DNA of 64,000 bases, taken from positions 1 to 64,000 of the IMG/VR virus record IMGVR_UViG_3300031963_000004. One strand, given 5' to 3'. The notes under the pieces are model-generated. The model was not told the origin of the DNA. It made no database searches and saw only the letters and a program-made list of their open reading frames with translations. Below, piece after piece: positions 1 through 39,998 of the stretch (within the stretch, counting starts at the first letter, position 1; every line of letters starts with the position of its first letter). The translations under genes and the position numbers were made by a program. Source of the DNA: a virus.

Positions 1-265
1 CACCTGGAACAGATGATATAATATCTTTTACGGTCATTTGGCGAGTTTGTATTTTAGCATCAGCACCGAACTGTTTTGGAGCACCTGAACTTGGTCCTGG
101 TTGCGGCACGCCTTCAGACATAGATTCACCACCGCCATCACCGCCTCCATTGCCATCACCGCTATAACCACTATAATAAGCGTAGCCAGGAAAAAAGTAA
201 CCACCGTAGTGCTTCTTACTTTTTTTGGTTTTCTTTTTTTCTGTTATGAATTCGTAGGCTCTCAT
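1..265 (-). CDS. Partial capsid-targeted, Gly-rich unknown protein (C-terminus off window)
   Basis: The frame is open from ATG at 265 to the left edge, giving 88 residues without a stop. It starts MRAYEFITEKKK, then has a Lys-rich stretch, a Tyr/Gly-rich stretch and a Gly/Asp repeat at about residues 35-47. The start overlaps the stop of the upstream gene as ATGA (262-265), so the two are probably translationally coupled. The first nine residues match the T4 internal-protein signal (MKTYQEFIAE type) and end in the [L/I]-x-E site cut by prohead proteases. Head packaging is inferred from that signal only. No domain is recognisable in the visible part. Confidence 0.7.
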   Translation of the reverse strand, partial: MRAYEFITEKKKTKKSKKHYGGYFFPGYAYYSGYSGDGNGGGDGGGESMSEGVPQPGPSSGAPKQFGADAKIQTRQMTVKDIISSVPG

Positions 266-678
266 ATATTAAAATATTCTTTACCAATAATTGCACTTGG
301 TGGTATTACACCACTGTATATGTAAGTTTCTTCACCTGTATCATCATCTCTTTGAAAATGCGGATCGGCTCTTAGCAGTTGTTGATTTAACTTATTTTGA
401 TCAATTTTAAAGATTACACCACCTTGATTCATTAATTCTAATATTTGTTTTTCATGTTCAGCATCGGGCTCTATCACACTTGGATCAACAAAACTACTTG
501 CTATATCTGGATAATTACTTAGATACACATAATTTTTATCACTCCAGTCAAACATTCTTAGATTGCCACCAGGCAATAGCCCGCTTTTTAATATACTGGG
601 CTCAAACGCTCTCAATGTCGCATGATATAATGGTTCGTAATCATATGCTATTTCTAAAATAATTTCTGCGGCTCTCAT
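262..678 (-). CDS. Capsid-targeted ADP-ribosyltransferase-fold-like protein
   Basis: 138 residues. The N-terminus MRAAEIILE fits the capsid-targeting and cleavage pattern (I-L-E). The body has PLYHAT at residues 16-21, then a Phe-x-x-Ser-Ile-Leu-x-x-Gly-Leu-Leu-Pro segment, YVYLS at 50-54 and an Ile-rich C-terminus. This order (L-Y-H-x-T, 'xxILxxGLxP', Y-x-Y-L-S) is what KptA/DarT/PARP-like ADP-ribosyltransferase folds show, with His19 and the Tyr of YVYLS as candidate NAD-contacting residues. T4 packages an ADP-ribosyltransferase (Alt) in the head, so the combination makes sense. I cannot point to a clear catalytic Glu, so activity is uncertain. It overlaps its neighbours by 1 and 4 bases. 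Confidence 0.6.
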   Translation of the reverse strand: MRAAEIILEIAYDYEPLYHATLRAFEPSILKSGLLPGGNLRMFDWSDKNYVYLSNYPDIASSFVDPSVIEPDAEHEKQILELMNQGGVIFKIDQNKLNQQLLRADPHFQRDDDTGEETYIYSGVIPPSAIIGKEYFNI

Positions 679-1592
679 TAGTAATCATTCTCTGCTGAGT
701 GATCTAAATTTAGATACAGTTGCCATTGACGATCTGGAAACTTTGATAGATAAGCATTTAACATGGTATTCCAACTACCTGCCATTCTTTCTTGTATCTG
801 ACTAAGTGTGATTGGATCATCACGCATATCCATTATTTGACCATATTCAAGTTCAAGTTCATCCGTGTCATAACCTTCATCTTTGTATTGGTCAACAATG
901 TCATCTACATCACTATCACTTTTAACTGGATGATCATCTAATGATATACCAAAATGGAACTGATATTTTTCGCCTTGATACTCTGGTTGTTTAGGTATTG
1001 CTATTAATATAGGCGCTATACCATGATAATACTTAAACATGTTATTACCTTTAGTAGCGGCAGTACACCAGCGTGTACCTTGACCATAGTAGCATGATGC
1101 AGGTTCATCTTGTGGTACTATTACTCTCCAACTGTCATCTTCGTATAATGTAAATGCAGTACCTTTATCTTTTAGTTGTTGAGCATCAGGATCAGGATAC
1201 TCATCCATAACGCTCATAAAATCACCAAAGTTACTATACTTGTTAATATCGTTGCGTGGACTAGGTATTTTTTTACGCTGAACAAGTTTATAAAATTTAG
1301 TCAAAGAGTCAAATAGATAACCATCTAATACATCTTCAAGTTTTGTACTAGCATCATTCGCATATGTTCTTGCTATCCATTGCACATATTGTTTGTTAGG
1401 TGTAGGATCTGCTTCTTGAAATCTATCTAATGCAAAGCCTAATAATTCTTCTGGATCAATTTGTTGTATTGGATCGTCGCCGTAAATTCTTTGAACTGTA
1501 CGGTCCCCCAACATTTTTTTATAAATCGCTGCACCTAAGTTTTGTACAGTTTTATTACGATCATATTCAATTAAAAATTCTGTTGCTCTCAT
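678..1592 (-). CDS. Capsid-targeted phage protein with GTRWCTA motif
   Basis: 304 residues starting MRATEFLIE, which matches the capsid-targeting consensus (L-I-E). The N-terminal half is helical and acidic. Near the middle a hallmark G-T-R-W-C-T-A lies at residues 172-178, preceded by Cys-Tyr-Tyr-Gly-x-Gly and followed by N-N-M-F-K-Y-Y, then a beta-rich stretch. I have the impression that this 'GTxWC...N.F..Y' core occurs in many phage hypothetical proteins, but I know no established function. The conserved Trp-Cys could be an active-site Cys, which is speculation. The gene starts 3 bases after the upstream stop and ends in a TAATG overlap with the ART-like gene. Confidence 0.65.
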   Translation of the reverse strand: MRATEFLIEYDRNKTVQNLGAAIYKKMLGDRTVQRIYGDDPIQQIDPEELLGFALDRFQEADPTPNKQYVQWIARTYANDASTKLEDVLDGYLFDSLTKFYKLVQRKKIPSPRNDINKYSNFGDFMSVMDEYPDPDAQQLKDKGTAFTLYEDDSWRVIVPQDEPASCYYGQGTRWCTAATKGNNMFKYYHGIAPILIAIPKQPEYQGEKYQFHFGISLDDHPVKSDSDVDDIVDQYKDEGYDTDELELEYGQIMDMRDDPITLSQIQERMAGSWNTMLNAYLSKFPDRQWQLYLNLDHSAENDY

Positions 1593-1595
1593 AGT

Positions 1596-1955
1596 TTATG
1601 CTACTTCTATAATAGGTACAAAGGCACTTTGATACATGTTCCAATCTTTATCCATAACTGTATAAGCTATGTAACGTTTACTTTCAGTATCTTTAACTCG
1701 AAACTTTATAAAAAGATTATTAGTGTTATCATGTAAAAGAAACATATGTCCTGGAGCTAACTGCTTAAGTTTAGCTTTAGCTTTCGGTAATTTATTTAGT
1801 GTATTTATAACTTCATTAGGTGTCCAATCTCGTTGAGCCATTCTATCAAAAAGATGTTTATCTATTATGATAGTGTAATTTCCAACCTGAATGTTACCTG
1901 CATACTCAAATGGTCTGCGTGATTTTTCTTCGGTTAGAAATTCAGTAGCTCTCAT
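1596..1955 (-). CDS. Small capsid-targeted protein, DUF4258/RelE-like fold possible
   Basis: I chose ATG at 1955 over the in-frame ATG at 1970 for two reasons. It gives an ATGA overlap with the upstream stop (1952), and it places MRATEFLTE, the shared capsid signal with an L-T-E site, at the N-terminus. The product is 119 residues. The body reads His-x-x-Phe-Asp-Arg-Met-x-x-Arg-Asp-x-Thr-x-x-Glu-Val, followed by beta strands ending in IAYTVMDKDW. That H...R...R...EV arrangement resembles DUF4258 or BrnT-type small proteins of the RelE-like fold, some of which are RNases. The similarity is by pattern only, so nuclease activity is not claimed. Confidence 0.6.
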   Translation of the reverse strand: MRATEFLTEEKSRRPFEYAGNIQVGNYTIIIDKHLFDRMAQRDWTPNEVINTLNKLPKAKAKLKQLAPGHMFLLHDNTNNLFIKFRVKDTESKRYIAYTVMDKDWNMYQSAFVPIIEVA

Positions 1956-2629
1956 AGATTTCTTTCCCATATTACAAAAGGATCGTTTACTATAATAGTA
2001 CCATCTGGACGCTGCATGTAATTGCCACGGTGTAAGTCTAAACTATAGTTATGTTTTTTAGCAAAATTTTTAACTATGTATACGGTTTGTAATAATGCTT
2101 TAGCCTTATCTAAACCGCCTAGATAATCAATAACTTGGTCAGCTTCAAACCATTCGGGTTCATCGTCATTATCAAAACTATCATGTTGAGCCCAGTCAGC
2201 AATTTTTTCCCATGCTTTAAAATAATCGCCTTTACCTGCGTACTTAGCTGCTTGATCTAATAGGTAAATTACCTTACCTACTGAGTCTGGTAACTCTCGT
2301 AGTTCTTCCATTCTGGCTTGAATATATTTTTTACCTTGAAATTCAAAACTTTCAAAGCCACTAAATTTTGGTAAGTGAGGATTATCAGTATTTTTATTAC
2401 AATAGTTGATCCAATTAACAAACATTTTTTGATCTGGACTAAAATCTAAATAATGTCCTTGACGATAACCAAACACAATAAACACTTGACCGTTTGGCTC
2501 AAGATATGCTTGTTTATCTATACCGCCACCTAGATACTTGTAACCTTTGTCCATCAAAGCCTGTCTAATACCGCCGTGAATCTTACCGGCCATTTCTTCA
2601 AGTTCATTATTAAACTCAAAAAATCTCAC
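1952..2629 (-). CDS. Capsid-targeted protein kinase-like/phosphotransferase-like protein
   Basis: 225 residues starting MRFFEFNNELEE, a looser version of the capsid signal. Near the N-terminus is a GGGIDKQAYL segment like a nucleotide-binding loop region. Near the C-terminus is D198-L-H-R-G-N203, then N-D216-P-F. That spacing (Asp, Asn five residues later, then an Asp-Pro/Phe metal ligand) is the catalytic loop and DFG-equivalent of the aminoglycoside-phosphotransferase/kinase superfamily (HGDLHxxN...D). It probably phosphorylates a protein or small molecule, and the substrate is unknown. It overlaps both neighbours by ATGA. Its presence in the cassette suggests delivery with the genome (inference). 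Confidence 0.6.
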   Translation of the reverse strand: MRFFEFNNELEEMAGKIHGGIRQALMDKGYKYLGGGIDKQAYLEPNGQVFIVFGYRQGHYLDFSPDQKMFVNWINYCNKNTDNPHLPKFSGFESFEFQGKKYIQARMEELRELPDSVGKVIYLLDQAAKYAGKGDYFKAWEKIADWAQHDSFDNDDEPEWFEADQVIDYLGGLDKAKALLQTVYIVKNFAKKHNYSLDLHRGNYMQRPDGTIIVNDPFVIWERNL

Positions 2630-3024
2630 TGGAATATCTCCGGATGTTTCTCACCATATATTTTGATGAACTTACCTGCTAATACATCTGCTTCTTGTTC
2701 AATTGGACTACCAGGATAACTATCACCAGGCTGTATCTGTCCTAACTCACCTTGACGTACATGCACTAATTCATGAAATACTGTGCGTAGTATATCAACT
2801 AAGTTTCTGTTTTTAGCGTAAACCCAAACTTTGTTATCGTCAGTAGTATGACGACCGGTATGATGCCCTTGCTGTGCTTCTTCAGTATCTTTACTGTATT
2901 CAATGTCAGGGATGGTTTCTAGCTTGAGGATTCTCGCAGCCCAATTTACGAAATCGTCTAAGATTTCTTCTTCGTTAGCCACAAGGATATTAGATTTTGA
3001 TTCTGTTATTTCACGAATTTTCAT
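2626..3024 (-). CDS. Capsid-targeted HExxH zinc metallopeptidase-like protein
   Basis: 132 residues. MKIREITE at the start ends in I-T-E like the other capsid-targeted proteins. The zinc-peptidase motif H-E-L-V-H lies at residues 84-88, followed about 20 residues later by E-Q-E-A-D (109-113), whose Glu fits as the third zinc ligand. The protein is small, close to the minimal catalytic domain of gluzincin or SprT-like families. This is the first gene of the cassette 3024 to <1. A late-promoter-like ATAAATA sits only 7 bases before its ATG, with no Shine-Dalgarno sequence. Peptidase activity is inferred from motifs and the target is unknown. Confidence 0.7.
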   Translation of the reverse strand: MKIREITESKSNILVANEEEILDDFVNWAARILKLETIPDIEYSKDTEEAQQGHHTGRHTTDDNKVWVYAKNRNLVDILRTVFHELVHVRQGELGQIQPGDSYPGSPIEQEADVLAGKFIKIYGEKHPEIFQ

Positions 3025-3031
3025 AATCTAG

Positions 3032-3038
3032 TATTTAT
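3032..3038 (-). promoter_or_regulatory. Late-promoter-like ATAAATA, leaderless type
   Basis: On the minus strand the sequence is GATAAATAC, 7 bases before the ATG of the metallopeptidase-like gene (3024). T4 late transcription starts about 6 bases past this element, so the mRNA would begin within about two bases of the ATG. Confidence 0.5.
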
Positions 3039-3040
3039 CG

Positions 3041-3745
3041 CTAGTTCCGCAACTTAGCGAGTTTGAAAAAGCGTAAAATAGTTAGATATATCCAGCCTAT
3101 ATCTACTTCGTAAGGCTTCTTACTAAGTTTAGGATTTGCTGGATCTAGATGATGATTGTTATGTAGTTCTTCGCCACCGATGATTATGCCCCATGGTGCA
3201 ATGTTTTTACTTTGATCTTTGGTCTCACCGTTACGATAACCCCACCAGTGACCTATACCATTGATTACTCCTGCTGCCCAAAAGGGTATCCACAGCATTT
3301 GTACGCCCCATATTATGGCGCCCATCCAACCAAAGACAATGAGGTTGAACACAAGGAGAATACTAATGCCAAGTCTGCTGTGAGGTGTGTATAACTTACG
3401 CTCAATCCAGTCATTAGGAGTACCGATGCCATAAGTATTAACCATCTCTTTATCTTTGCTTGCGTCATTGTATAATAAAGCTCCCTTAAATAATACATGC
3501 CATATACCGTGTGTGACTGGGCTATGTGGATCACCTTCTAGTTCACAGAATCTATGATGTTTACGATGAACTGCGACCCATTGTTTAGTAACCATACCTG
3601 TTGTTAACCATAACCAAAAACGCATGAAGTGGCTAATGATTGGATTAAACTCTATACCTTTATGTGCTTGACCACGATGTAAGTATAAGGTTACACATAT
3701 GATTGTTATGTGTGTTGTGATTAGTGTATATAAAATTGCTGTCAT
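3041..3745 (-). CDS. Acyl-CoA/acyl-lipid delta-9-type fatty acid desaturase
   Basis: 234 residues, an integral-membrane di-iron desaturase. All three histidine boxes are present: H-R-G-Q-A-H (23-28), H-R-K-H-H (60-64) and H-N-N-H-H (195-199), plus G-I-G-H-W-W at 163-168. Hydrophobic segments lie at about 4-20, 40-52 and 127-165. The reaction is introduction of a double bond into a fatty-acyl chain. It is shorter than most bacterial enzymes but keeps every metal-binding box. It is probably an auxiliary metabolic gene that changes host membrane fluidity during infection (inference). It stands alone between the capsid-targeted cassette and a GC-rich spacer. Confidence 0.9.
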   Translation of the reverse strand: MTAILYTLITTHITIICVTLYLHRGQAHKGIEFNPIISHFMRFWLWLTTGMVTKQWVAVHRKHHRFCELEGDPHSPVTHGIWHVLFKGALLYNDASKDKEMVNTYGIGTPNDWIERKLYTPHSRLGISILLVFNLIVFGWMGAIIWGVQMLWIPFWAAGVINGIGHWWGYRNGETKDQSKNIAPWGIIIGGEELHNNHHLDPANPKLSKKPYEVDIGWIYLTILRFFKLAKLRN

Positions 3746-5060: not shown

Positions 5061-6233
5061 TTAGTGTTTCAATAGTAATGTACTCAACACGCCAGGATCT
5101 CTAGCAGTTAAATCTGGTTCGCCAGGAGTAATAATAACATTGTACTTCATCTGTGGATTCTTTCTACCCTTAGTTTCCCATTCATTGTATGTAAGAATAC
5201 TATTTGCACTGATACCATATTCGCCGGCTAATCTTTGTTTTAGTTCAGGGATCTTGTCAGGTATAACCTGCCATTGGCCTTGTGGACCCTTAACAAGATT
5301 TTTCTTTTCATCCTTAACTAACAAATCATAGAATAAGTTTGTTGGAACAATGCGACTATTTTTTGTTTGTGCTAAACTTGGATCCGCTGCTTTAACTTTC
5401 TTTTCTTGTGAAGTATGTGCACCTTCACTCCAGTTAATCATAAAGTTATTTGGCTTCTGACCTAATACAACATCAGCAACTTTAGTATAAGCATAGAACA
5501 GTACATTTGGATTAGATTGTGCTAGATTATACGCTAATTGAATATATTCTGGGCTAAAGAAGTCACCTGAATCATGCCAGCGAATAGTTACATTATATCC
5601 TGCTTTTTGTCCTTTAGCAACCTCTTTTTTAATCTCATTATCTAGTTGATTGAAGAAACCACTTGGATCATTAAGTAAATATGTTAGCATTCTTGCTCTG
5701 CTTAACCAGGCCGCTTCAAATTGTACAAAGCCACCTTTCATAGCAAAGCAATCTACTTTACAACTACCTGCTCCGGGACATGTGTTTACTATAATTAATT
5801 TACCGGTAGATTCATCTAAAGCAATACCAACTAATGCAGCAAAGCCAACATTAAAGAATTGTTCTTCAGCACCATCACTGTGCTTCATCTTTTCATTTTT
5901 CTTTAATATCTTATCTGGTCTTATTGATAAAGCTTGTTTAATATCTTCTTCTCTATAACGTTTACCCGAAGCATCATAGTATTTTACAACACTACTACGG
6001 TGAACATATGGTAACTTATATTTGTCTGTTTTACCTTTTTCTTGACCTGCAATACGACCCATGTAATCTTGAAATTCTTCATCACCAAACTCTCTTGATG
6101 GTGCAGGTAATTTAGTAGCTTCATCTACTTCTTGCTCTCCTGCTTGTGCTACGAACTCCTCAGGGCTCATAATTTGAACACCCGGTAATGCACCAGGCAT
6201 CTCGCTTTCTAATAGTAAGTCTGTAATTTTCAT
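5061..6233 (-). CDS. Capsid-targeted GP88-family-like protein with Cys motif
   Basis: 390 residues. It starts MKITDLLLESEMPG, with an L-L-E cleavage-type site after residue 9. The core contains C152-P-G-A-G-S-C158-x3-C162, then R-W-H-D-S-G-D (218-224) and F-Y-A-Y-T-K. These are the landmarks of the phage GP88-type family (CPGA..C...C, R.H.SGDF, Y.YTK), whose function is not established. The three Cys could bind a metal or cluster. The start overlaps the upstream stop as ATGA. Packaging inside the head is inferred from the N-terminus. Confidence 0.65.
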   Translation of the reverse strand: MKITDLLLESEMPGALPGVQIMSPEEFVAQAGEQEVDEATKLPAPSREFGDEEFQDYMGRIAGQEKGKTDKYKLPYVHRSSVVKYYDASGKRYREEDIKQALSIRPDKILKKNEKMKHSDGAEEQFFNVGFAALVGIALDESTGKLIIVNTCPGAGSCKVDCFAMKGGFVQFEAAWLSRARMLTYLLNDPSGFFNQLDNEIKKEVAKGQKAGYNVTIRWHDSGDFFSPEYIQLAYNLAQSNPNVLFYAYTKVADVVLGQKPNNFMINWSEGAHTSQEKKVKAADPSLAQTKNSRIVPTNLFYDLLVKDEKKNLVKGPQGQWQVIPDKIPELKQRLAGEYGISANSILTYNEWETKGRKNPQMKYNVIITPGEPDLTARDPGVLSTLLLKH

Positions 6234-8035
6234 TTGTTTGGTGTACCTGTAACTTTATTGTGTATCATAGTCCTAATATCTGCTTTTACATCATCTCCGA
6301 ATGTAGGACTTGTAACTGTATTTAATGCTCTTCCGATAGTAGACAACAAACCTAATCCTTTTCTAACATCCATACCTTGCTTAGGTTCTTGTTGCTGTGG
6401 TTGTTGATCTTTAATATAATATGGATCAGTCTCCTGTTCCTTAACCTTGTACTTATTTTTTAACTCTCTTGTTTTAGCCCAACGCTCATCATCAGGCATA
6501 TCATATGTTGCTTTTAATTCTCTGTAATATTCAGGATCAGGCAATCCAGATTTTTTTCTTAATTCCTGATGACGCCTATGTAGTTTTTCTTGCGTTGATT
6601 CTTTGTCTGTTTCTTCTAAGTTAGCGTTACCTTGTTGAGGCACCATTCTAACGTTAACACCTTTTGGTACAGTGGTGTTAATGGTCATTTCATCACCTAA
6701 TTCTCTACTTGTATCCATCCCTCTTACTAGAGTATTTCCTTGACTATCTGGTCTAATAGATGCAGTTCTTCTATTAAAAGTTTCTTCACCATCTCTATTC
6801 ACGTAATTTTTTGTAGAATACATATAGGAAGGAGAAGATGCAGGAGGATTTTGTTCTAACACTGCCTCATGCTGCTCAATCATCTTACCTTCTAAATATT
6901 GTGCAACTGAGTTTAAGTAATCATTTGCTTTAGTTATTTTAGCCTGTACCCAACCATCAAGACCTTGTATTTCGCTTACATCTCTTATGCAGTGAAATAT
7001 TTTTTCTGCATCTTTGGCTGCTGCAATTAACTGTGACCTAGCCATTTCAACTTCGTGGTCAGATTTCTTAGGCATTAATTCTGGTTTAAATTTAATACCT
7101 TGACCTGGCATTAATAGTAATTCATCTTCGGTTACACGGGCTTCAATCATACCTTGTAGTATTGCACTTTCCGCTACACCTTTACTTCCACGATTTTTCC
7201 ACTTTACACCATGTATATTATCTAATCGTTTGACTTCAGATTTACTCAATGCAGTTAAATCTCTGGCATATTTTTGATTAAATCCTTCTGGATCTTCGCC
7301 AGCACCATACTTATCTGTAGCTTTATGTATTAATCCGGTTTTAGTTCTTGTTACTTCACCTTCCGCCACACCTTGCCCTCTGTCGTAAATACCAGGTGAG
7401 CCTACTTTACTTCTTGGATCTCCATATACTTTGTATACTTGATCGGTAGGTTCATTGCCTTTAGCAGGTCTAACATCAGTGATGATTGAGCCTCTTCCTA
7501 GCGCATAGTTAATCTTATCCTTAGCATCATATTCATCATCAGCGGAAACTAAGACAGTACGTGTATCGTCAGACAGATTGTTGTAATATGTTACAACAAA
7601 TTTTGTGTCTGTACCTTCCGTCACACCTCCACTCGTAGCAGATTTACTCTTGTTCATTTGACCCCCTCTGTTCTGTAAATCCTTAGCAATTTCTTTTTCG
7701 TCAAATGGTCTTCCAATGAATGAAGTAATTTTGTCAAAGAAGTTTTCATCAACTTGTGATTTTAAACCTTGCTTCATTTCTTCTTTTGATTTGCCGTATT
7801 TTTTCATAAACTCTCTATCTTTTAATTCACGTAGGTCCATAATTAGTTGCTTTACACTACCTTCTTTTAAGTTCTTAGGCTTTTTACCAGCTTTCTTCAT
7901 TGAAACGGCAATAGCTGCTTGTTGAGCAGGATTAGCTGCTTCTTCAGCCCTTCTTTTCATTTTACCCATTTTAGAAGGTGCGGGTGCAACTGATCCAGAT
8001 ACTGTTGCGCCCACTGACATTTCGTTTATTTTCAT
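6230..8035 (-). CDS. Modular internal/scaffold-like protein with repeated V-x-E-G sites
   Basis: I start it at ATG 8035 (MKINEMSVG, 601 residues), 11 bases after the fibre gene stop. The longer in-frame start at 8077 would run into that gene and lacks a signal. The sequence is low in complexity at both ends and holds several short modules joined by GVTEG, GVAEG and GVAES. These junctions fit a prohead-protease-type (hydrophobic-x-Glu) site. One module, a TKFVV...SADDEYDAKDKI segment, looks like a small beta-alpha domain. The C-terminal third is charged, with Gln/Pro runs. I read it as a polyprotein of the phage head core, cut on maturation (inference). No enzyme motif is seen. Confidence 0.55.
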   Translation of the reverse strand: MKINEMSVGATVSGSVAPAPSKMGKMKRRAEEAANPAQQAAIAVSMKKAGKKPKNLKEGSVKQLIMDLRELKDREFMKKYGKSKEEMKQGLKSQVDENFFDKITSFIGRPFDEKEIAKDLQNRGGQMNKSKSATSGGVTEGTDTKFVVTYYNNLSDDTRTVLVSADDEYDAKDKINYALGRGSIITDVRPAKGNEPTDQVYKVYGDPRSKVGSPGIYDRGQGVAEGEVTRTKTGLIHKATDKYGAGEDPEGFNQKYARDLTALSKSEVKRLDNIHGVKWKNRGSKGVAESAILQGMIEARVTEDELLLMPGQGIKFKPELMPKKSDHEVEMARSQLIAAAKDAEKIFHCIRDVSEIQGLDGWVQAKITKANDYLNSVAQYLEGKMIEQHEAVLEQNPPASSPSYMYSTKNYVNRDGEETFNRRTASIRPDSQGNTLVRGMDTSRELGDEMTINTTVPKGVNVRMVPQQGNANLEETDKESTQEKLHRRHQELRKKSGLPDPEYYRELKATYDMPDDERWAKTRELKNKYKVKEQETDPYYIKDQQPQQQEPKQGMDVRKGLGLLSTIGRALNTVTSPTFGDDVKADIRTMIHNKVTGTPNK

Positions 8036-8046
8036 ATTGTGATCTG

Positions 8047-11000
8047 TTATTCGCTTATCCATCTTGCCTGGAACCAAGACCTGCCATCAAATTGCCCTCT
8101 TTGTAATGCGCCGTTACCAACGTTGACAATGTTTATATAATCAGTTGAACCATTTAGATATATAATTTTTGTTATCTGTTGAACCACTGCATTAAAAGAA
8201 CCAGCCGCAGCCACCAGGTTGTTATTTTTCTTAATCGCTATACTTGCTTCGGTATTTCTATAAATATCATAACAGGCAGTAATTTCCCAGTAACCAGCCT
8301 TCTGTGGCGTAAATGTATAAGTTGAAGTATCGAACCAAGCACTTGGTACATTGACATTAGCACTCACAACGCTGTATCTACACACATCTTCAGTAAAGTC
8401 ACCTGGCAAAGTATAAGTCACACTTGCATACGCTTCAAGAAAATAAAATCTTAAATCTGGGGGCGTAAATGTAAATACCCCGGTAGTATTATCATAAGAA
8501 AAATCACCATAACTACTTGGTACGCCGGGTTCACCAACACTTAAAGATGTTAATGCAATTCCACCTGCACCTAATACACTTGTACCTGAACTGTCATTAA
8601 TACCACCACCACTTGGTAATGTTAAGTTACCGTTGTTGTCAAAAGTCCAAGTATGGTTTTGATTGTTAGTCTTGATATAAATATTACCGTTGTTATTTAC
8701 ATCAATGTGATAGTTATCGTTACCTAAAATTAAACTACCATTTCCGTTAACACCATTTCCTGCTGCTATATGAATGTGCGGGGAATCAAACGCAGTAGTA
8801 GGATATATGTTAATAAACTGACCATAATCAGCAAAGTTGTTACTAGATGCACCTCCTGGAGCCATAGTTATGACACCATTTGGGAAATCACCACTATTAG
8901 GTGCAGGGCTACTTAGTTTAGATCCATCAAATGTAATATTACCTAAATCAGGACCAGCTGAAGCACCGATAACATTTTCAGTCATTGTGAAAGTATTTGT
9001 TGATACAGTTGGACCTGCATTATCTAGTGTTACTGGACTACTTATAGCGTTTACTGTGGCACTAGTAGCAGTTGTTGTTTCAGTATTATAGCCTGGATTA
9101 ACGGACTCAATAATATATTGACCGTAAACACCATTAGTGTTTTCACCGTTGATCGGGAAGTTAATTACTAAACCAGCATAGTTATCATTATTGTTAAAGT
9201 ACAAATATGTACTTGCTGCAATAGTAACCGATGTATCGTTACAATCAATACATTGTGCTTCATAATCATCTTGTGGATAAATTTCTCCATCACTTCCACC
9301 AAAGTTGCGAGTAATTCGTTTTGACCATACTTCACTGCCATCTGTGCCACTTATGCACATAACATATAGTGTATAATCATCATCTTCATAATTAGTAAAG
9401 ATGTAATTACCGTTTGGAGTAGCTGTACCTTTAAAATTACTGTCCCAACTAATATCATCATTAGGATCTACTCTAACTTGCCAAATTATATTACCATTGC
9501 TGCTGTTAATTTTTGTTACGATACCTTCTTCATCTATTGCAATAAGATTGCCATCTGACAGCAAATCAATACTAGTTATTGGATTACCTGTATCATTAGG
9601 TGAATCAACATGTACTGCCCATTGTTGAGTACCGTTTATATCGTACTTAATAACTATACTTCCTTTATTTCCTGCCCAGTAATAGCCACCAGCGTAGGAA
9701 TTTCCATTACTGTCTACTACAACTGTATTAAGTCGTTCGGATTCAGCATCGCCTACGCTCTTGCCCCAAGCGTTACTTCCCAATCTAGCAATATAAGCCT
9801 GTTGATTTAATTGGTAGTTAAAACTTAATGTGTTACCAATTTCTGTACTCCAGTCCTTATCTCCCCATCCCAAACCAACTACATCGCTGATTGCTGTACC
9901 TTGAATATTTGAAGCCCAACCTGCTACGTTGTCACTATTATTGTTTAATGCATCTACATTAAAATCAAATGTTAGATCGTTAACACCATCAACGCCGCCT
10001 AATTGGCTACCTAATACTCGTACATTAACAGGATTGCCCCAACCATAAATACTACCACTCCAGCCATTAGACCTAAGAATAGTATATGTTCCATTTTGGT
10101 TAGTAGACACACTTAACCATAGTCCGTTACTTTGACCATCAGGAGCTGCCCCTACCTCAAAATAGTTTAATCTAATCTGATAGTTTCCACCAATAGTATA
10201 GTAAATACTTTCACCAGGTTGTACATTGCTGGCATTATATTCTGACCAACTTACAACCAACTTGTTTAATCCGCTTCCAGTTAACGGAGTGAAAGATTTT
10301 TGTAACATTTCATTGTAAGTATGGCCCACTAATACTGCGAAGGGTTGATTACCAGCGTCAAGCCCAAACACAGCATCATTTAATACTACAGAGGAATTAC
10401 TACCAGTTTCAATGTCAAACATTGATCCTACAGTGCCGTCAGTTGGATTAATAAACCATGTGAATCCACGATCTTTATCAACATTATTGTCATAGTAATT
10501 ACCAATAGTTACTAAAAAGTTTGTACCATTGACATTTACATGTTCTAAGGAAACTATTTTAGGATATTCACCATTAGTATTTGATGATAGTAAATTCTTG
10601 TTCCACTCAACACTACCGGTGCTATTTAATTTTATTATGCCACCAAATCTTCTACTTTCATTATCATCATAATATGAATAACTCATATAACTGTTGCCAC
10701 CGCTATCCATAGCAACTGCTTCCATATCAACATTATCATTCGTACTATGAATAAATTGATTTATAAAACCATATTGCTGTGGTGTAATGTATGCGGTAGT
10801 TTGAATTGTGCCATCTGGGAACGTTACTGAACCGTCAGTATTTACTTGTAATGTATGACTACCTTCACTGATTGAATTTCCACTGCCACCTCCTAAACCA
10901 CCTACATTCGCTACTGCATTATTAACATAGGTTTCTGTTGCATAACCTGTTAAGCTTGGTATAGTTGGTTTATTGGTTAAATCATTATAATCACCACTAG

Positions 11001-34486: not shown

Positions 34487-37400
34487 TCACTTGATACCGC
34501 TGAGTTTCTTCCACTCATATAGAACATCTTTTGACTTTGATTCAGTCACTTTAACACTTGTATGTGGTAGAGTTGTCTGATCACGCTTTTGACGGTTTAA
34601 GCCACCGGTAATAAAGTTAGTCATAAACTCAATGTCTTGCGTAGCCTCATTTGGCTCGTTTTCAAATGATTCTTCAACGTGGTCACAACCGCAGCTACTT
34701 TCGTTCATTCCGCACTCGTTGCACATAGGCTCATCACCTTCTTCTAGGCTACTTGTATCTTTGTACTTTTTACCGTCGATTTCGAATTCTTCGCCAGGTG
34801 GTGTTTGACTTAGCTTTTCTGTAAATTCATTGCCTTCGTCAGCTTGACCATATGCTTCGTCTACTTCTTTCTCTTTTCTATGATCTTCTTCATCAGAGCC
34901 TTTTTCAATCTGGTCTTCTTCCTCGCCTTCATCTTCTTCTCCTTCTGGTTTGTGCATAGTATCGCCTGCATTGTCAACAGGCACTTCATCAGCATAATCT
35001 TCACCAGAGCTTTGCTGAGGTGCTGCACTTAAGCCTGCCATTTTCTTAATTAGTTCTAGCACACTGTCGCCACCATCAATAACTTCAGGCCCGTCAACTG
35101 ATACCATTTCTATGCCACCATTGTCGCTACTATCACTTGTCATAGGAGCACCATATGGTGATGATTGTGATTGTTCTCCGCCACCGAAAATACCACCCAT
35201 TCCAGCGTTCTTTAATAATGCGATTAACTCACCTGCGTCACCCTCAGTAGCAGTAACAGTAACACTATCGTTACCGTCTGAGCTTGTGTTGGTGTTTATA
35301 CTAATGTTCTCGTTGAGTAATGAATCTAAGTCATTAGCCCAACTTTCAAATTGTCTATCCATATCTACGTTTTCTTTCATTGGTTTTTTATCTGACTTGT
35401 TAGGCTTATTAATGTCTATTGCATTTGGATATACTGGATCCATTGGTACCGGCATAGGTACATCTTTTTGACCCTTCTTAGGAGGATCACTACTCCACGT
35501 GCCTGTTAATTCACCTGGCTTATCGCCGCCCTTAATAGAACCTTCTTTCATCTTGCTTGCTTCTTTTACAGTTACTGGATGAGTTTCACCACCGAACTTG
35601 AATACATCTCTTCCTTCATCTTTGGCTTGCTTAGCTGCCCAAGCAAAAGGACCTTCTGCTACTGGTTCTTCTACTACTGGCTGAGGCATCATTGGTGACT
35701 CGCCCATTATTTTATCTTTCTTTGAATACTTGTGTAGGTCTAATGCATCACGTAGTGCTTCACTCATATGACCAGTTGTTTTGTATTCTTCAATGTGTGA
35801 TTGTAACTCCATCAACATTTCTTCAATGCTCATCTGAGTTTCACGCATCATTTGGCTAAAGTTAATACCTTCTTTAACTTTCTTTTTGTTTCTTAATGCG
35901 GCAAAATCTTTTGAATCTAACTTACCTTTTGGTTCAGCAACATCAAGATTCTTTTGACCGCCTTTTAATGCTTCTTTAACATTATCTGGACTTGGCTTCT
36001 TACCTGCTGCTTTCATATGAGCATCATATTCACCTTTGCTTACTTCACGGCTGTTGACTGTATATTTTTCTTCGTCAACTTTCTTAGCGATTTCATGACC
36101 TTTCTTGATAACTTTCTTTGGAAGATCAGTTGCTGGTTTTGAACCGTAGCCTGCTTGTTTCTTAGCAGCAGCCATACCAATCGCATATTTGTTCTTTGCT
36201 CTTTCTGCAATCATTTCTTCAGTAGAATCGATCCAGTCTTTTAATTTTTTCTTTTTGGCAGCAGCTTTGGCAGCTTTTTCTCTTTCCTCTTCTTTTCTCA
36301 ACCATGCTTCTTCGTCGGCTGGAGCAGATTTTGGTTTTTTGTCTGATATTGTATGAACTTTGCCTTTAGCTGATTTTCCAGGTTGACCTTTAATAACCTT
36401 GGATCCTGCGTCACTAGCACCTTGCCATTTTTTAGCATCTTTAGTAGCGTCACTTTCTTGACCGCCGCGACTTTTTACTTCTTTTTCTTCACCTTCTTCA
36501 TCAGTATCGTATGCTTTACCATACTTACCTGTATGTTTTTTGCCCTTAAGGTCAGCCATCTTAGATGCTTCGTACATTAATTCAAGCATTTGTCTCATAT
36601 CAGTTTGATTTACATGAGATTCAGAAATTTCTTTTTTAGGTGTTGTACTAGCTAAAGATTTAATTCTATTGAGTTGCTCTAAATCTTCTTTGAACCAATT
36701 GAGTGGATTCAATTTACTACCTAAGGCTTTGAGATTTTCCCAATTCTTTTCGCCTTGCTCTCTTTCTTTTTCTTGCCAACCTGGACCAGGATATTGACCG
36801 CCTCTATAAGGATGTTTTGTATCCCATTCAATTTCATCTTCACTACGTGTACCTACAACACCTCTTTGATATTTTTTATCAGTTAAATCAGGGCCTGCTT
36901 TAGGTTCTGCTTTAGGTTCTGGTTCTGCGTATCTTGATCTATTTTCAATAGGAGGCAATTCGTTACCTAAAGTTTTATCGTTATCACCTGTACCATCTCT
37001 TTGATACCACTTACTTAACTCAGCTTTATCAACGGGTTCACTTGAATAGCCAGGTCCTGGTCCTTGCGCTGCTTTTAATGCGCTTTGTAATCCAGGACTA
37101 CCTTTTAATCTCTCTCTTGCAGCAGTTGCTTCCCAATCTACATTTGCATATGGGTCTACTTTATTCTGTATCGGTGCCGGCGCACTATCACGCTTAAATG
37201 TTGGGTGATCACGTACAGGAAATACATTATCATCTCTTGTTTGTTCTGTGTCATACGCTGGTTTTTCACCAGGGCCTAAATGCGATGGACGATAATCTGT
37301 ATCGGGAATAACATTAGTTGTATTAGGAACAACATTAGTTGTATTAGGGACAACATTAGTTGTATTAGGGACATCGGACGCAGGGAAATTTTGTTCCCAT

Positions 37401-38134
37401 GGTTCATATGGTCTTTCAGGGTTTGTTGGTGTTACAACTTCATTACCATCTTTATCTTTCGTAAGAAGATACGTTAGGCCGCTACCTGCCAATGCACTTG
37501 CAGCCATAGCCTTTCCTATGTTGCCTGGAGAAGTTTTAATACTTCCAGACTTACTTGCTGCTGGTTCACCTTTTTCTGCCGCCGCCGCCATTTTTTCCGC
37601 TGCTCCGGCTTCTTTCTCTGCTGCTTTGATATAATCAGCAGCCAATGATGAAGTTTTAGGATCAAATGTAGTTGGTACTTCTTTACCTGTAGCAGTACTT
37701 TTAGGTGTTACAACATTCTTAGGTCTGAAATCTGGCCTAGGAGCAGCTGCCGGCTTACCTTTAGAAGCAGAACCTTGCATGCCAGTAAATGTAGTCGGCA
37801 CATCTTTACCTGTAACAGTACTCTTGGGTACAGCTTTTCCATCCTTAGGCTCAAATTTTGGTCTAGCATCAGCAGGATAAGGTTTCGATGGTCTTTCTGC
37901 ATTAGGCTTGACATCAGATGGATATTTTAGTGGTGCGTTATATTTTACATCTTTGGGTTGAGGAGCTTTGTTTTGAGCATATGGACCTTGAGACATTTTT
38001 TCTTGTCTACCAGCGAATCTTTGAGTAGCTGTTCCACCTTTTTCTCCGGCGCCGGCAACTCTAGTAGCACCTTTTTCTATTCTGGTGGCTGCATCAGTAA
38101 CTGCCTCATATATGTTTATGTCTTTGATTTTCAT
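34487..38134 (-). CDS. Giant modular capsid-targeted/scaffold-like polyprotein
   Basis: 1215 residues. It begins MKIKDINIYEAV (I-Y-E cleavage-type site). Layout: Lys/Pro/Ala-rich N-terminal third with T-x-x-GK-[DE]-VPTTF repeated twice, a hydrophobic Ala/Gly segment (~205-225), a VPNTTNV tandem repeat, Lys/Ala-rich helices in the middle, many V-x-E-G, I-S-E and V-K-E-type junctions, an acidic C-terminal third, and a Cys cluster C-N-E-C-G...C-G-C near the end. The final residues read YEWKKLSGIK. It looks like a head-core or internal polyprotein cut at many Glu sites during maturation. No enzyme motif is seen. Confidence 0.6.
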   Translation of the reverse strand: MKIKDINIYEAVTDAATRIEKGATRVAGAGEKGGTATQRFAGRQEKMSQGPYAQNKAPQPKDVKYNAPLKYPSDVKPNAERPSKPYPADARPKFEPKDGKAVPKSTVTGKDVPTTFTGMQGSASKGKPAAAPRPDFRPKNVVTPKSTATGKEVPTTFDPKTSSLAADYIKAAEKEAGAAEKMAAAAEKGEPAASKSGSIKTSPGNIGKAMAASALAGSGLTYLLTKDKDGNEVVTPTNPERPYEPWEQNFPASDVPNTTNVVPNTTNVVPNTTNVIPDTDYRPSHLGPGEKPAYDTEQTRDDNVFPVRDHPTFKRDSAPAPIQNKVDPYANVDWEATAARERLKGSPGLQSALKAAQGPGPGYSSEPVDKAELSKWYQRDGTGDNDKTLGNELPPIENRSRYAEPEPKAEPKAGPDLTDKKYQRGVVGTRSEDEIEWDTKHPYRGGQYPGPGWQEKEREQGEKNWENLKALGSKLNPLNWFKEDLEQLNRIKSLASTTPKKEISESHVNQTDMRQMLELMYEASKMADLKGKKHTGKYGKAYDTDEEGEEKEVKSRGGQESDATKDAKKWQGASDAGSKVIKGQPGKSAKGKVHTISDKKPKSAPADEEAWLRKEEEREKAAKAAAKKKKLKDWIDSTEEMIAERAKNKYAIGMAAAKKQAGYGSKPATDLPKKVIKKGHEIAKKVDEEKYTVNSREVSKGEYDAHMKAAGKKPSPDNVKEALKGGQKNLDVAEPKGKLDSKDFAALRNKKKVKEGINFSQMMRETQMSIEEMLMELQSHIEEYKTTGHMSEALRDALDLHKYSKKDKIMGESPMMPQPVVEEPVAEGPFAWAAKQAKDEGRDVFKFGGETHPVTVKEASKMKEGSIKGGDKPGELTGTWSSDPPKKGQKDVPMPVPMDPVYPNAIDINKPNKSDKKPMKENVDMDRQFESWANDLDSLLNENISINTNTSSDGNDSVTVTATEGDAGELIALLKNAGMGGIFGGGEQSQSSPYGAPMTSDSSDNGGIEMVSVDGPEVIDGGDSVLELIKKMAGLSAAPQQSSGEDYADEVPVDNAGDTMHKPEGEEDEGEEEDQIEKGSDEEDHRKEKEVDEAYGQADEGNEFTEKLSQTPPGEEFEIDGKKYKDTSSLEEGDEPMCNECGMNESSCGCDHVEESFENEPNEATQDIEFMTNFITGGLNRQKRDQTTLPHTSVKVTESKSKDVLYEWKKLSGIK
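37310..37372. repeat. Three tandem 21-base repeats
   Basis: Unit AACATTAGTTGTATTAGG(A/G)AC occurs three times head to tail inside the 1215-residue gene and encodes the seven-residue VPNTTNV repeat; a diverged fourth partial copy precedes it. Confidence 0.9.
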
Positions 38135-38140
38135 TTTTTA

Positions 38141-38908
38141 TTACCTATAATTAATTAGATATTTAAGGCGTTCTTCAAACACACGATAATCTTCTGCTCC
38201 ATAATATGGATCGGTTGGATCATATTTTTTCACACCTTTTTCTACTGCCTTTGTTGCTGCAATACCACCTGTTAAGTCCGTCGCTACTTTAGCAGGTATC
38301 GTTACTGCTTTCTTCCCGATATTTTTAGCTGTTTGCCCTGCTACAGGAGTAAAAGCTTTTTTAACTGTTCCGGGCAGTACCTTTCCGGCTGCATATCGTG
38401 CTACTTTTGCACCGCCTAAAAATGCAGGGTTTACTAATAAACCACCGACATCACCTACGGTTGATGCAACTGGATACTTATCTCGTAATTCAGCAGATTT
38501 TGCATATTGTTTTTCTTTTTCTTGCTCATATCTTTTAGTCCAGTCATCGGAACCACTGAGTGGTTTATCAAATGCACTTCCTGCTGTCTTTACTGCCGCT
38601 AATGCTTTATCACCATATCCAAACGTTGCAGTATTTAATGCGCCTCTTGCACCTGCTTGCGCTATTTCACCTGCTGTACTTAAAGCCTTACTTGGATCTT
38701 TCTTTGCTGCTTCCCAACCTCTGCCCATCTGAGCAGCAATTTGATCACGTTTGTCTATGATGTCACCTGTAGCCGTAGCAGCTTTTTTACCTAAATCGTA
38801 TATTGCTTTAGGTGCGTGAGCTACTTCTTTTCCCACTTCGGCGCCAAATTCTCTGGTAGCATCCCACCATGATTTTTCAGCCTCAGTTATGATTTCAGTT
38901 ATTTTCAT
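38141..38908 (-). CDS. Capsid-targeted internal/ejection-like protein
   Basis: 255 residues. MKITEIITEAEKSW fits the capsid signal with an I-T-E site. The body is Ala/Gly/Lys-rich and helical. It includes AQAGARGALNTATFGYGDKALAAVK, an EKEKQYAKSAELRDKYPVAS segment and GLLVNPAFLGGAKVAR, a layout seen in phage internal virion or DNA-ejection proteins that interact with membranes. Weakly hydrophobic glycine-rich stretches (~85-125, 150-200) may insert into the membrane on ejection (inference). Confidence 0.6.
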   Translation of the reverse strand: MKITEIITEAEKSWWDATREFGAEVGKEVAHAPKAIYDLGKKAATATGDIIDKRDQIAAQMGRGWEAAKKDPSKALSTAGEIAQAGARGALNTATFGYGDKALAAVKTAGSAFDKPLSGSDDWTKRYEQEKEKQYAKSAELRDKYPVASTVGDVGGLLVNPAFLGGAKVARYAAGKVLPGTVKKAFTPVAGQTAKNIGKKAVTIPAKVATDLTGGIAATKAVEKGVKKYDPTDPYYGAEDYRVFEERLKYLINYR

Positions 38909-39174
38909 TTTTTTATATCATCCCCTGGTCTTGGTTTGAAGAAAGGACCAGCAGCACGATTATCGCCTGCTTTATAGGCTTTTAACTGACGCTGATATGT
39001 TGCTTCATCGTCGGCTTTCTTACTAGGTAATCCAAGTGCTGCTCTTTGTTTCTCCTCAGCATTTGCCATTTCATCATCAGTAGGTTCAGGTCCTGTAAGT
39101 TGAACTCCAGGTTGTCCAGCTACAACTCTTTCAGAGAGAATGTCTAAGTATTTTCTAAAAAATGTGGCGTCCAT
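38905..39174 (-). CDS. Small capsid-targeted protein (89 residues)
   Basis: MDATFFRKYLDILSERVVAGQPG start: an amphipathic helix ending in L-S-E, the prohead-protease-type site. The rest is Pro/Asp/Lys-rich and disordered. It overlaps the next gene by ATGA. It resembles small head-core peptides of T4-like phages in layout, not in sequence. Function unknown. Confidence 0.55.
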   Translation of the reverse strand: MDATFFRKYLDILSERVVAGQPGVQLTGPEPTDDEMANAEEKQRAALGLPSKKADDEATYQRQLKAYKAGDNRAAGPFFKPRPGDDIKK

Positions 39175-39186
39175 TATAATTCTCTT

Positions 39187-39402
39187 TTACTTTTTAATCG
39201 TATCTAATTTTTCTTCGATTCTATCTAACTGAGCTTGTAGCACTGTCAACTTTTCATTGGTAGCCTGTGCTTTAATATTGCTAATTTCTATTTTCTTATC
39301 CAGTTCACCTACAGTAGAGGTTATAGTTAAATAACCACCGCCCCCTAAACTGCAAGCACCTACTACTATCCAAGATAATTGACCCGTGCTAAAATCTAAC
39401 AT
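39187..39402 (-). CDS. Small membrane-anchored coiled-coil protein (71 residues)
   Basis: A hydrophobic segment at about 9-28 (LSWIVVGACSLGGGGYLTIT) is followed by a charged helical region with heptads (IKAQATNEKLTVLQAQLDRIEEKLDTIKK). This is the build of small phage membrane proteins of the holin/antiholin or spanin-helper type, or of a virion membrane anchor. The stop/start overlap (TAATG, 39402) couples it to the upstream gene. Function unknown. Confidence 0.6.
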   Translation of the reverse strand: MLDFSTGQLSWIVVGACSLGGGGYLTITSTVGELDKKIEISNIKAQATNEKLTVLQAQLDRIEEKLDTIKK

Positions 39403-39998
39403 TACTTACTTGCTCCTGTACTTGGCTTTGGAGGACGATTGATTTTAGTCATAGGACTCTTAGTTTGTATGCCCTCTTTGGAATTGTTTTTGATCGTTGG
39501 GGTTTTCTTACCGTCATATGGAATATCTATACTTGGCTTTTTAGGAATCACTTTGTCTAGATATTGATTTGCATAATCCTTACTTGCTTGTTTTGATGTT
39601 GGATTATCTTCCATATTAGGTTCGGTGAGCAAAGTATCAGGTTGATTTGCATAACCTTCTGCTTCACTGTTTAAACCATCTTCGTGATCTTGAGTGAATA
39701 CTCTTACTGCATTGATATTTTTACCTAGTAACTGAGCAATTTGTTGAATCATTGGTTCTGTTGCTGGGTATTTGAATTCTGCTTTGATGATATTGACACT
39801 AGAATTTTGATGATCAGGGAACCCATATGGGTCTTTTTGAATTGGGGTAGACTTAGCATCACTTACAGATACTGGATCGAACTTGTTCAAGTTGTACTTA
39901 AACATGTCCATAAATTTACTGTCGATATCTCCAGCTATCTTTATCGTATAGCGATAAGTTCTTACACTTTCTGTCAAATATTGGCGAAGGCTTTTCAT
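39402..39998 (-). CDS. Capsid-targeted T4-like conserved protein
   Basis: 198 residues. MKSLRQYLTESVRTYRYTIKIAGD: the first ten residues match the T4 internal-protein signal most closely (MKTYQEFIAE) with an L-T-E site, but continue directly into a folded domain (FMDMFKYNLNKFDPVSVSDAK, QKDPYGFPDHQ, FKYPATEPMIQQIAQLLG). The C-terminal third is Lys/Pro/Asn-rich and disordered. I recall similar proteins in marine T4-like phages without a known function. Late promoter 19 bases upstream, AGGAATT ribosome site. Confidence 0.6.
   Translation of the reverse strand: MKSLRQYLTESVRTYRYTIKIAGDIDSKFMDMFKYNLNKFDPVSVSDAKSTPIQKDPYGFPDHQNSSVNIIKAEFKYPATEPMIQQIAQLLGKNINAVRVFTQDHEDGLNSEAEGYANQPDTLLTEPNMEDNPTSKQASKDYANQYLDKVIPKKPSIDIPYDGKKTPTIKNNSKEGIQTKSPMTKINRPPKPSTGASK

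Follow-up and report, generated by a model that had tools for sequence, protein, structure and literature searches.

Capsid-type tags on a gene cassette with exchangeable bodies in a large T4-like phage: candidate internal head proteins for delivery at injection

Why should six short genes with unrelated bodies, overlapping in tandem at the edge of a large viral contig, begin with much the same few residues? The question is raised by IMG/VR virus record IMGVR_UViG_3300031963_000004, a contig of 223,151 bases whose first 64 kb (positions 1 to 64,000) are the window, and in which six overlapping minus-strand open reading frames fill positions 2-3024; gene statistics cover 200 genes. A first-pass annotation, made from the letters alone, had seen here an island of effectors that share a capsid signal and are delivered at injection. 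The answer argued for below is that the cassette is probably a late-transcribed operon of internal head proteins, which would be released by the prohead protease and would modify or disable host proteins or defences. All six reading frames are present, as follows (slashes mark the predicted cut; coordinates of the tags, also on the minus strand, are in brackets):

2626..3024, minus strand: zincin-like (HExxH) protein, 132 amino acids (aa), first gene of the operon, motif HELVH; tag MKIREITE/S (residues 1-8, 3001..3024, ending ITE/S)
1952..2629, minus strand: short protein-kinase-like protein, 225 aa, GTG start; tag MRFFEFNNELEE/M (residues 1-12, 2594..2629, ending LEE/M, with LDE/M, VNE/M or VTE/M at the same place in fused kinase homologues)
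1596..1955, minus strand: DUF4258/RegB-like small protein, 119 aa; tag MRATEFLTE/E (residues 1-9, 1929..1955, ending LTE/E)
678..1592, minus strand: GTRWCTA-domain protein, 304 aa; tag MRATEFLIE/Y (residues 1-9, 1566..1592, ending LIE/Y, its E9 invariant in a 13-member alignment)
262..678, minus strand: ADP-ribosyltransferase (ART)-like protein, 138 aa; tag MRAAEIILE/I (residues 1-9, 652..678, ending ILE/I)
2..265, minus strand: Gly-rich reading frame, 88 aa, cut by the contig end; tag MRAYEFITE/K (residues 1-9, 239..265, ending ITE/K)

In transcription order the junctions are GTGA, ATGA, a 3-base gap, TAATG and ATGA. The contiguous, coupled arrangement first described, with ATGA/TAATG overlaps or a 3-base gap, therefore stands except that the first overlap is GTGA and not ATGA; HELVH, GTRWCTA and the kinase residues D198, N203 and D216 are all where the first-pass annotation had placed them. 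Each complete window protein has one recognised domain (Pfam, PHROG); fused multi-domain forms are present in the relatives L011, L012 and L015-L017.

Every cassette protein starts M[RK] and then has [I/L]-x-E within 8-12 residues. For counting, a strict tag was defined as M[RK], then [ED][FILVM], then [FILVM]xE by residue 13, an expression composed after inspection of the cassette N-termini and for which the relatives are the out-of-sample check. It is found in 13/200 genes against 0.53 expected from shuffled N-termini (maximum 4 in 2000 shuffles) and in 6/6 cassette genes against 0.07 in shuffles, so that the shared signal earlier claimed for all six is far above chance. With a looser definition there are 15 genes where 3.3 are expected, again including all six of the cassette (Fisher p 6e-8, cassette versus rest). 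Among approximately 100 loci of relatives, collected by homology searches of viral contigs, 214 of 1148 genes bear the strict tag with 5.65 expected, and these genes, often in overlapping tandem runs whose order and content vary by contig, span 79 distinct first-domain families. Comparison of gene content at this locus in relatives, initially suggested as a way to see if effectors are exchanged, had just that outcome: bodies are swapped and the signal is kept, with content differing between near relatives.

The parallel is with phage T4, where the first 10 residues of IPIII are enough for packaging, with a part played in targeting by residues 4 and 7 and in processing by 8 and 10, and where gp21 cleaves after L/I-x-E (PMC9026906). 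From the T4 record, IPII and IPIII start MKTYQEFIAE/A and Alt starts MELITELFDE. Most window tags are one residue shorter than that of IPII and IPIII but retain the hydrophobic residue after the first Glu, the hydrophobic P3 and the P1 Glu.

A different type of evidence comes from cassette modules that, in relatives, are embedded in proteins of up to ~1700 aa. Every tagged body was matched against the full set of proteins, and a junction was scored where a body starts deep inside another protein. Of 118 unique fused junctions, 75 have Glu exactly at P1 together with a hydrophobic P3, where the same proteins would lead one to expect 2.2, and with each body family counted once the site is at the junction in 20 of 25, against 1.45 expected (an exploratory count of 253/303 included repeated subjects and was replaced by these two). 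The form of the site is [L/I/V/M/F]-x-E, and the upstream sequences are unrelated. For example, the tag in MRAHEFVTE/NFADG is matched by fused GVAE/NFADG, TVNE/NFADG and SVDE/NFADG, and that in MKANEFLTE/KWSQKYK by fused QLDE/KWSQKYK and LEE/KWSQKYK. The ART-like domain is inside proteins of 502, 523, 1019 and 1306 aa, where VAE/, MAE/ or VTE/ precedes it in contrast to IILE/ in the window, and in L015 it ends YFRIDE/S whereas the window gene ends YFNI followed by its stop codon. Since such sites lie inside open frames, beyond any translation-start effect, they are most economically read as protease boundaries. It looks as if one set of cargo comes in two alternative formats, as single genes and as polyproteins.

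The protease that such sites call to mind is encoded in the same genome outside the window, a gp21-type prohead protease (Peptidase_S77, E 1.9e-29), as are Gp23 (E 7e-99) and a T4-like portal gp20 (E 8e-106). Between the protease and Gp23 genes is a gp22-like scaffold, its identity assigned by position, with 15 [LIVMF]xE[GSA] sites against 2.5 expected, the strongest excess in the genome; for the protease itself the figures are 4 and 0.7. In T4, gp21 breaks gp22 into fragments (PMC9026906), and because its counterpart shows the top excess here, the site motif draws support from this one genome by itself. Second to the scaffold is a window protein that is probably a processed core protein or polyprotein:

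34487..38134, minus strand: tagged protein of 1215 aa, with 15 [LIVMF]xE[GSA] sites against 4.9 in shuffles

The 1215-aa protein belongs to a second tagged group at 34487-39998, together with MKITEIITEAEK (255 aa) and MKSLRQYLTES (198 aa). A protein of the cultured phage PA5oct that starts alike and is similarly placed (MKSFRDYYDAS...) carries an annotation as detected by mass spectrometry (MS).

Timing of expression is also pertinent. Directly ahead of the operon there is one further element:

3032..3039, minus strand: T4-type late promoter core GATAAATA, lying 8-15 nt ahead of the first cassette gene

The core of promoters of this type, the octamer NATAAATA, has 62 copies in the 223 kb contig and lies <=60 bases upstream of 37/200 genes, including those for the portal and a gp67-like protein, where ~1.7 would be expected. 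None is upstream of the other five cassette genes, the single copy preceding the first. In relatives it is upstream of 151 of 1304 genes (9.6 expected), and 10 of their 27 multi-tag operons begin with it. Late expression, as judged from this motif, fits packaged cargo and would poorly fit early takeover genes made post-infection. Marking as it does many late genes in the phage and its relatives, the octamer could be used to assign expression class.

The tag statistics, the gp21-type protease, the late promoter and the [LIV]xE junction sites therefore argue for cargo that is delivered by the head and in which one constant signal stands before interchangeable bodies. What the DNA itself shows are the tags, the late-promoter motif, the protease gene and the swapping of modules. 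Packaging, cleavage, injection and enzymatic action of the cassette proteins we infer as follows. The capsid-targeting tag (8-12 residues, ending [I/L]-x-E) would bind each protein to the prohead core, and the gp21-type S77 protease would cut each tag after its Glu. The freed cargo proteins would remain in the head with the DNA and enter the next host cell at injection, where the modules (zincin, short kinase, ART-like, RNase-like, GTRWCTA and a truncated further module) most likely act on host proteins or defences from time zero, modifying or disabling them. Though head-delivered, swappable cargo is thus well supported indirectly, the effector island of the first-pass annotation has to be narrowed where GTRWCTA and the Gly-rich frame are concerned.

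How much can be said of the individual modules varies. Peptidase-like and kinase-like identities hold at the level of catalytic residues. In the zincin, H84, E85 and H88 are present in 80/80 homologues and E109, the downstream acidic ligand, in 79/80; its Pfam Peptidase_M78 match is weak (E 0.016, below cut-off). In some relatives the zincin stands behind a domain that by eye is cytidine-deaminase-like (L010:4096-4977 and L024:6515-7396, start MRISDFKIHN). The kinase-like protein has one PHROG match (15752, T7-type protein kinase, E 1.3e-6), D198, N203 and D216 in 26/26 homologues, and weak matches to type III effector kinases in the PDB and to Kinase-PolyVal (E 0.02); its chain ends shortly past D216.

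For the ART-like protein the identification is modest. The best PDB matches of its family profile are RNA 2'-phosphotransferases (Tpt1/KptA; E 0.0017 and 0.0025 over ~36 residues), enzymes of the ART-superfamily fold, but the AlphaFold2 (AF2) model, from 4 sequences, has a pLDDT (predicted local distance difference test) of 52 and was left unused for fold search. Pfam families searched on the protein gave no ART match, and PF01129, the Pfam ART family, found none in the phage's own genome, though the control was equally silent; two further viral-contig searches for the family returned the same three contigs only. The DUF4258/RegB assignment, to a BECR RNase, is weak, resting on sub-threshold Pfam matches (RegB 0.011 and colicin E5 0.043 for the window protein, RegB 0.016 and DUF4258 0.12 for a homologue, below cut-off). 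Tblastn against cultured phages with the ART-, kinase- and DUF4258-like proteins found no match, PDB profile searches with the GTRWCTA, zincin and DUF4258 families gave no credible relatives, and PADLOC and NCBIfam profile searches yielded nothing useful.

The GTRWCTA protein does contain its motif and is well modelled by AF2 (pLDDT 86, residues 1-6 disordered), but the fold search earlier proposed as a check matched nothing in the PDB and revealed no recognisable enzyme fold. Its viral fold matches are only to unnamed proteins and to PA5oct and Marseillevirus records; judged from the model, this is a domain common to phages and large eukaryote-type viruses. Relatives of the protein occur in Marseillevirus LCMAC records, where some are annotated as ankyrin repeats or tRNA ligase. 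The sixth gene was wrongly taken for a Gly-rich effector: it consists of a tag, a K/G-rich linker and the first ~36 aa of another module, and runs off the contig start, incomplete. Its tail (VPQPGPSSG...) matches L107:7642-8202 and two others (E ~1e-6), the module being whole in L107, L109 and L115. The module behind the linker was read by eye as ParB-like, for which Pfam gave no match.

In the nearest relative, L010, the genes for GP88, a Dps-like protein, desaturase, kinase, DUF4258 and GTRWCTA are retained, the ART-like gene and Gly-rich start are absent, and the zincin is fused behind another domain. Pfam searches on 96 tagged or cassette proteins gave GNAT 10 times, amidoligase 6 and GH19 5, with single cases of NUDIX, SLT, zeta-toxin, HicA and superoxide dismutase, and also Pol-beta/NTP-transferase and sigma-70 region 4. 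One stretch of another relative, L016:2975-7008, has three consecutive MR-starting genes, respectively DUF4258-like with LysM and GH19-like; ParB_N with ART-like; and, by eye, a gamma-glutamylcyclotransferase-looking domain with kinase.

Virion data are available for one of the closest cultured phages. By Gp23 these are Vibrio phage 2.275.O, Sinorhizobium phage Phosso and the PA5oct group (65-67% identical, PA5oct 65%). The record of PA5oct lists its GTRWCTA homologue, which has the start MKLFEVFTLYE, as structural on the basis of electrospray ionisation tandem MS (ESI-MS/MS). In the part of the PA5oct record that was used, the strict tag is on 4 of 80 proteins scored MS-positive and on none of 144 scored MS-negative (p 0.015). 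As a sign that tagged proteins are packaged, these data are suggestive only.

Several observations weigh against the cassette as head-delivered enzyme cargo, or against the reach of the counts. With the looser tag definition the same PA5oct proteins show no enrichment in the MS-positive set, a set that includes non-structural proteins such as ribonucleotide reductase and a gp32-like protein. The loci of relatives were picked by homology to the cassette and their counts describe such loci, not random phages. Zincins starting MRISDFKIHN (L010, L024) and DUF4258 homologues starting MRSHEFDNKQ (L108, L111) are without a clean cut site, and the zincins of S-SRM01 and phiM12 carry no tag. The beta-3 Lys of the kinase is replaced by Ile in the window protein, and by I/L in the nearest homologues though it is Lys in most other members, so that kinase activity is uncertain.

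Some of this would be accommodated if the products were packaged without being effectors, as helpers of core or scaffold in head assembly like T4 gp67/gp68, their domains being structural remnants. The gp67-like gene beside the portal has the same style of tag (MKLFEMF...), the kinase-like protein is without beta-3 Lys and GTRWCTA without known enzyme fold. Such a role is nevertheless unlikely given that cassette content is swapped between near relatives, unlike core components, that HExxH is kept in all 80 and D-N-D in all 26 homologues, and that ordinary enzyme domains are on many tagged proteins of relatives. That the proteins are instead late cytoplasmic enzymes, acting unpackaged in the producing cell, with their N-terminal likeness due to shared origin or translation context, draws on some homologues without a cleavable form of the tag. 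It is very improbable, as [LIV]xE is also at module boundaries in fused proteins where no start codon is involved, and the motif is that of T4 gp21 (PMC9026906) and is densest in the scaffold.

A lesser but serious possibility leaves delivery as proposed and alters the target, each protein being an anti-defence inhibitor that blocks one defence system, with turnover tracking host defences. Each of T4 Ip1, Ip2 and Ip3 inhibits different GmrSD type IV restriction enzymes (PMC12373910), and fast cargo swapping fits an arms race. Catalytic residues are conserved in the cargo, however, and a pure binding inhibitor would not need them; nor was there any defence-related profile match, though the library holds defence genes, not their inhibitors. 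Host takeover and counter-defence would use the same delivery, and the sequence is compatible with either role. Head-delivered cargo that modifies or disables host proteins or defences remains the favored reading of the cassette.

How novel would it be? The remark that no described system has this set needs qualifying, because polyvalent proteins hold the same kinds of domain (PMC5512222) and T-even phages tag many internal proteins (PMC12373910, PMC9026906). The latter number at least ten, with Ip1-3 blocking type IV restriction enzymes (PMC12373910), and the tag has been suggested in review to be a general packaging route of T4-like phages (PMC9026906). T4 IPI, IPII and IPIII share with the cassette a tag of ~ten residues ending L/I-x-E, an S77 protease in the genome and unrelated bodies; they differ in being small restriction inhibitors, whereas here there is a six-gene operon with enzyme-like domains and, in relatives, polyproteins with internal sites. 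T4 Alt is likewise a tag-bearing, gp21-processed and injected enzyme, and one cassette member is ART-like, but closest to Tpt1/KptA-type RNA 2'-phosphotransferases rather than the Alt clade. In the giant phages phiKZ and SPN3US, head or ejection proteins are matured by a prohead protease cutting after Glu, but in SPN3US the motif is A-x-E, with N-terminal propeptides, and no swappable short-tag cassette is described there (PMC10052503). The kinase-like protein resembles T7 gp0.7 in its PHROG match and in a short kinase core with D, N and D. But whereas T7 makes gp0.7 early, once infection has taken place, the window gene stands behind a late promoter and begins with a packaging-type tag, and its product has no beta-3 Lys.

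The polyvalent proteins of phages and conjugative elements comprise zincins, ART, S/T/Y kinases without C-lobe, GNAT, Pol-beta NTase, BECR RNases, ParB and lysozymes, and are predicted to be co-delivered with DNA and released by embedded peptidases (PMC5512222); injected polyvalent proteins with ART and GNAT domains are mentioned in a survey of jumbo phages (PMC7824862). The apparent likeness is in domain repertoire: zincin and kinase-like are present here, ART-like is modest and BECR weak, and ParB_N, GNAT, Pol-beta, SLT and GH19 domains are present in relatives. The difference is that in the window the genes are separate, and predicted release is by the phage's prohead protease at L/I-x-E, not by embedded peptidases. 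It seems plausible, though with less assurance than for the cassette itself, that large T4-like phages living in natural waters fill their capsids with enzyme domains of the polyvalent type, either singly behind a capsid-targeting tag or as long tagged polyproteins that gp21 would cut within the prohead at L/I/V-x-E linkers, the head-maturation protease being the release enzyme and the tag-plus-site unit permitting free shuffling between the two formats. The literatures on T4 capsid targeting and on polyvalent proteins would then be linked by a mechanism open to test, in which the prohead protease processes polyproteins; no paper joining them in this way was found (most subscription journals were outside coverage). 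From a practical perspective, the tag plus L/I/V-x-E offers a simple sequence rule for finding cargo in unannotated phage genomes. What were curiosities of T4 (Alt, IPI-III) would become part of an apparently general and fast-evolving arsenal that environmental phages inject, and the host functions that phages attack first would be revealed by an extensive natural inventory of enzymes apparently loaded into heads.

Near the cassette there is probably further cargo:

5061..6233, minus strand: GP88-family protein (Pfam GP88, E 2.9e-27) with tag MKITDLLLE/S by the tag expression

Its homologues in relatives are tagged too, and GP88 may therefore itself be packaged. Directly upstream of the cassette, at window 3041-3745, is a fatty acid desaturase gene, with the same neighbour in L010. 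At window 6230-8062 a 610-aa protein with repeated GV[AT]E[GS] linkers resembles a small polyprotein; its true start is probably the internal, tag-like MKINEMSVG. Far from the cassette is a lone tagged gene, MRAKEFVVERKQGK (123 aa, L002:8124-8495, contig 90124-90495), which has no family match.

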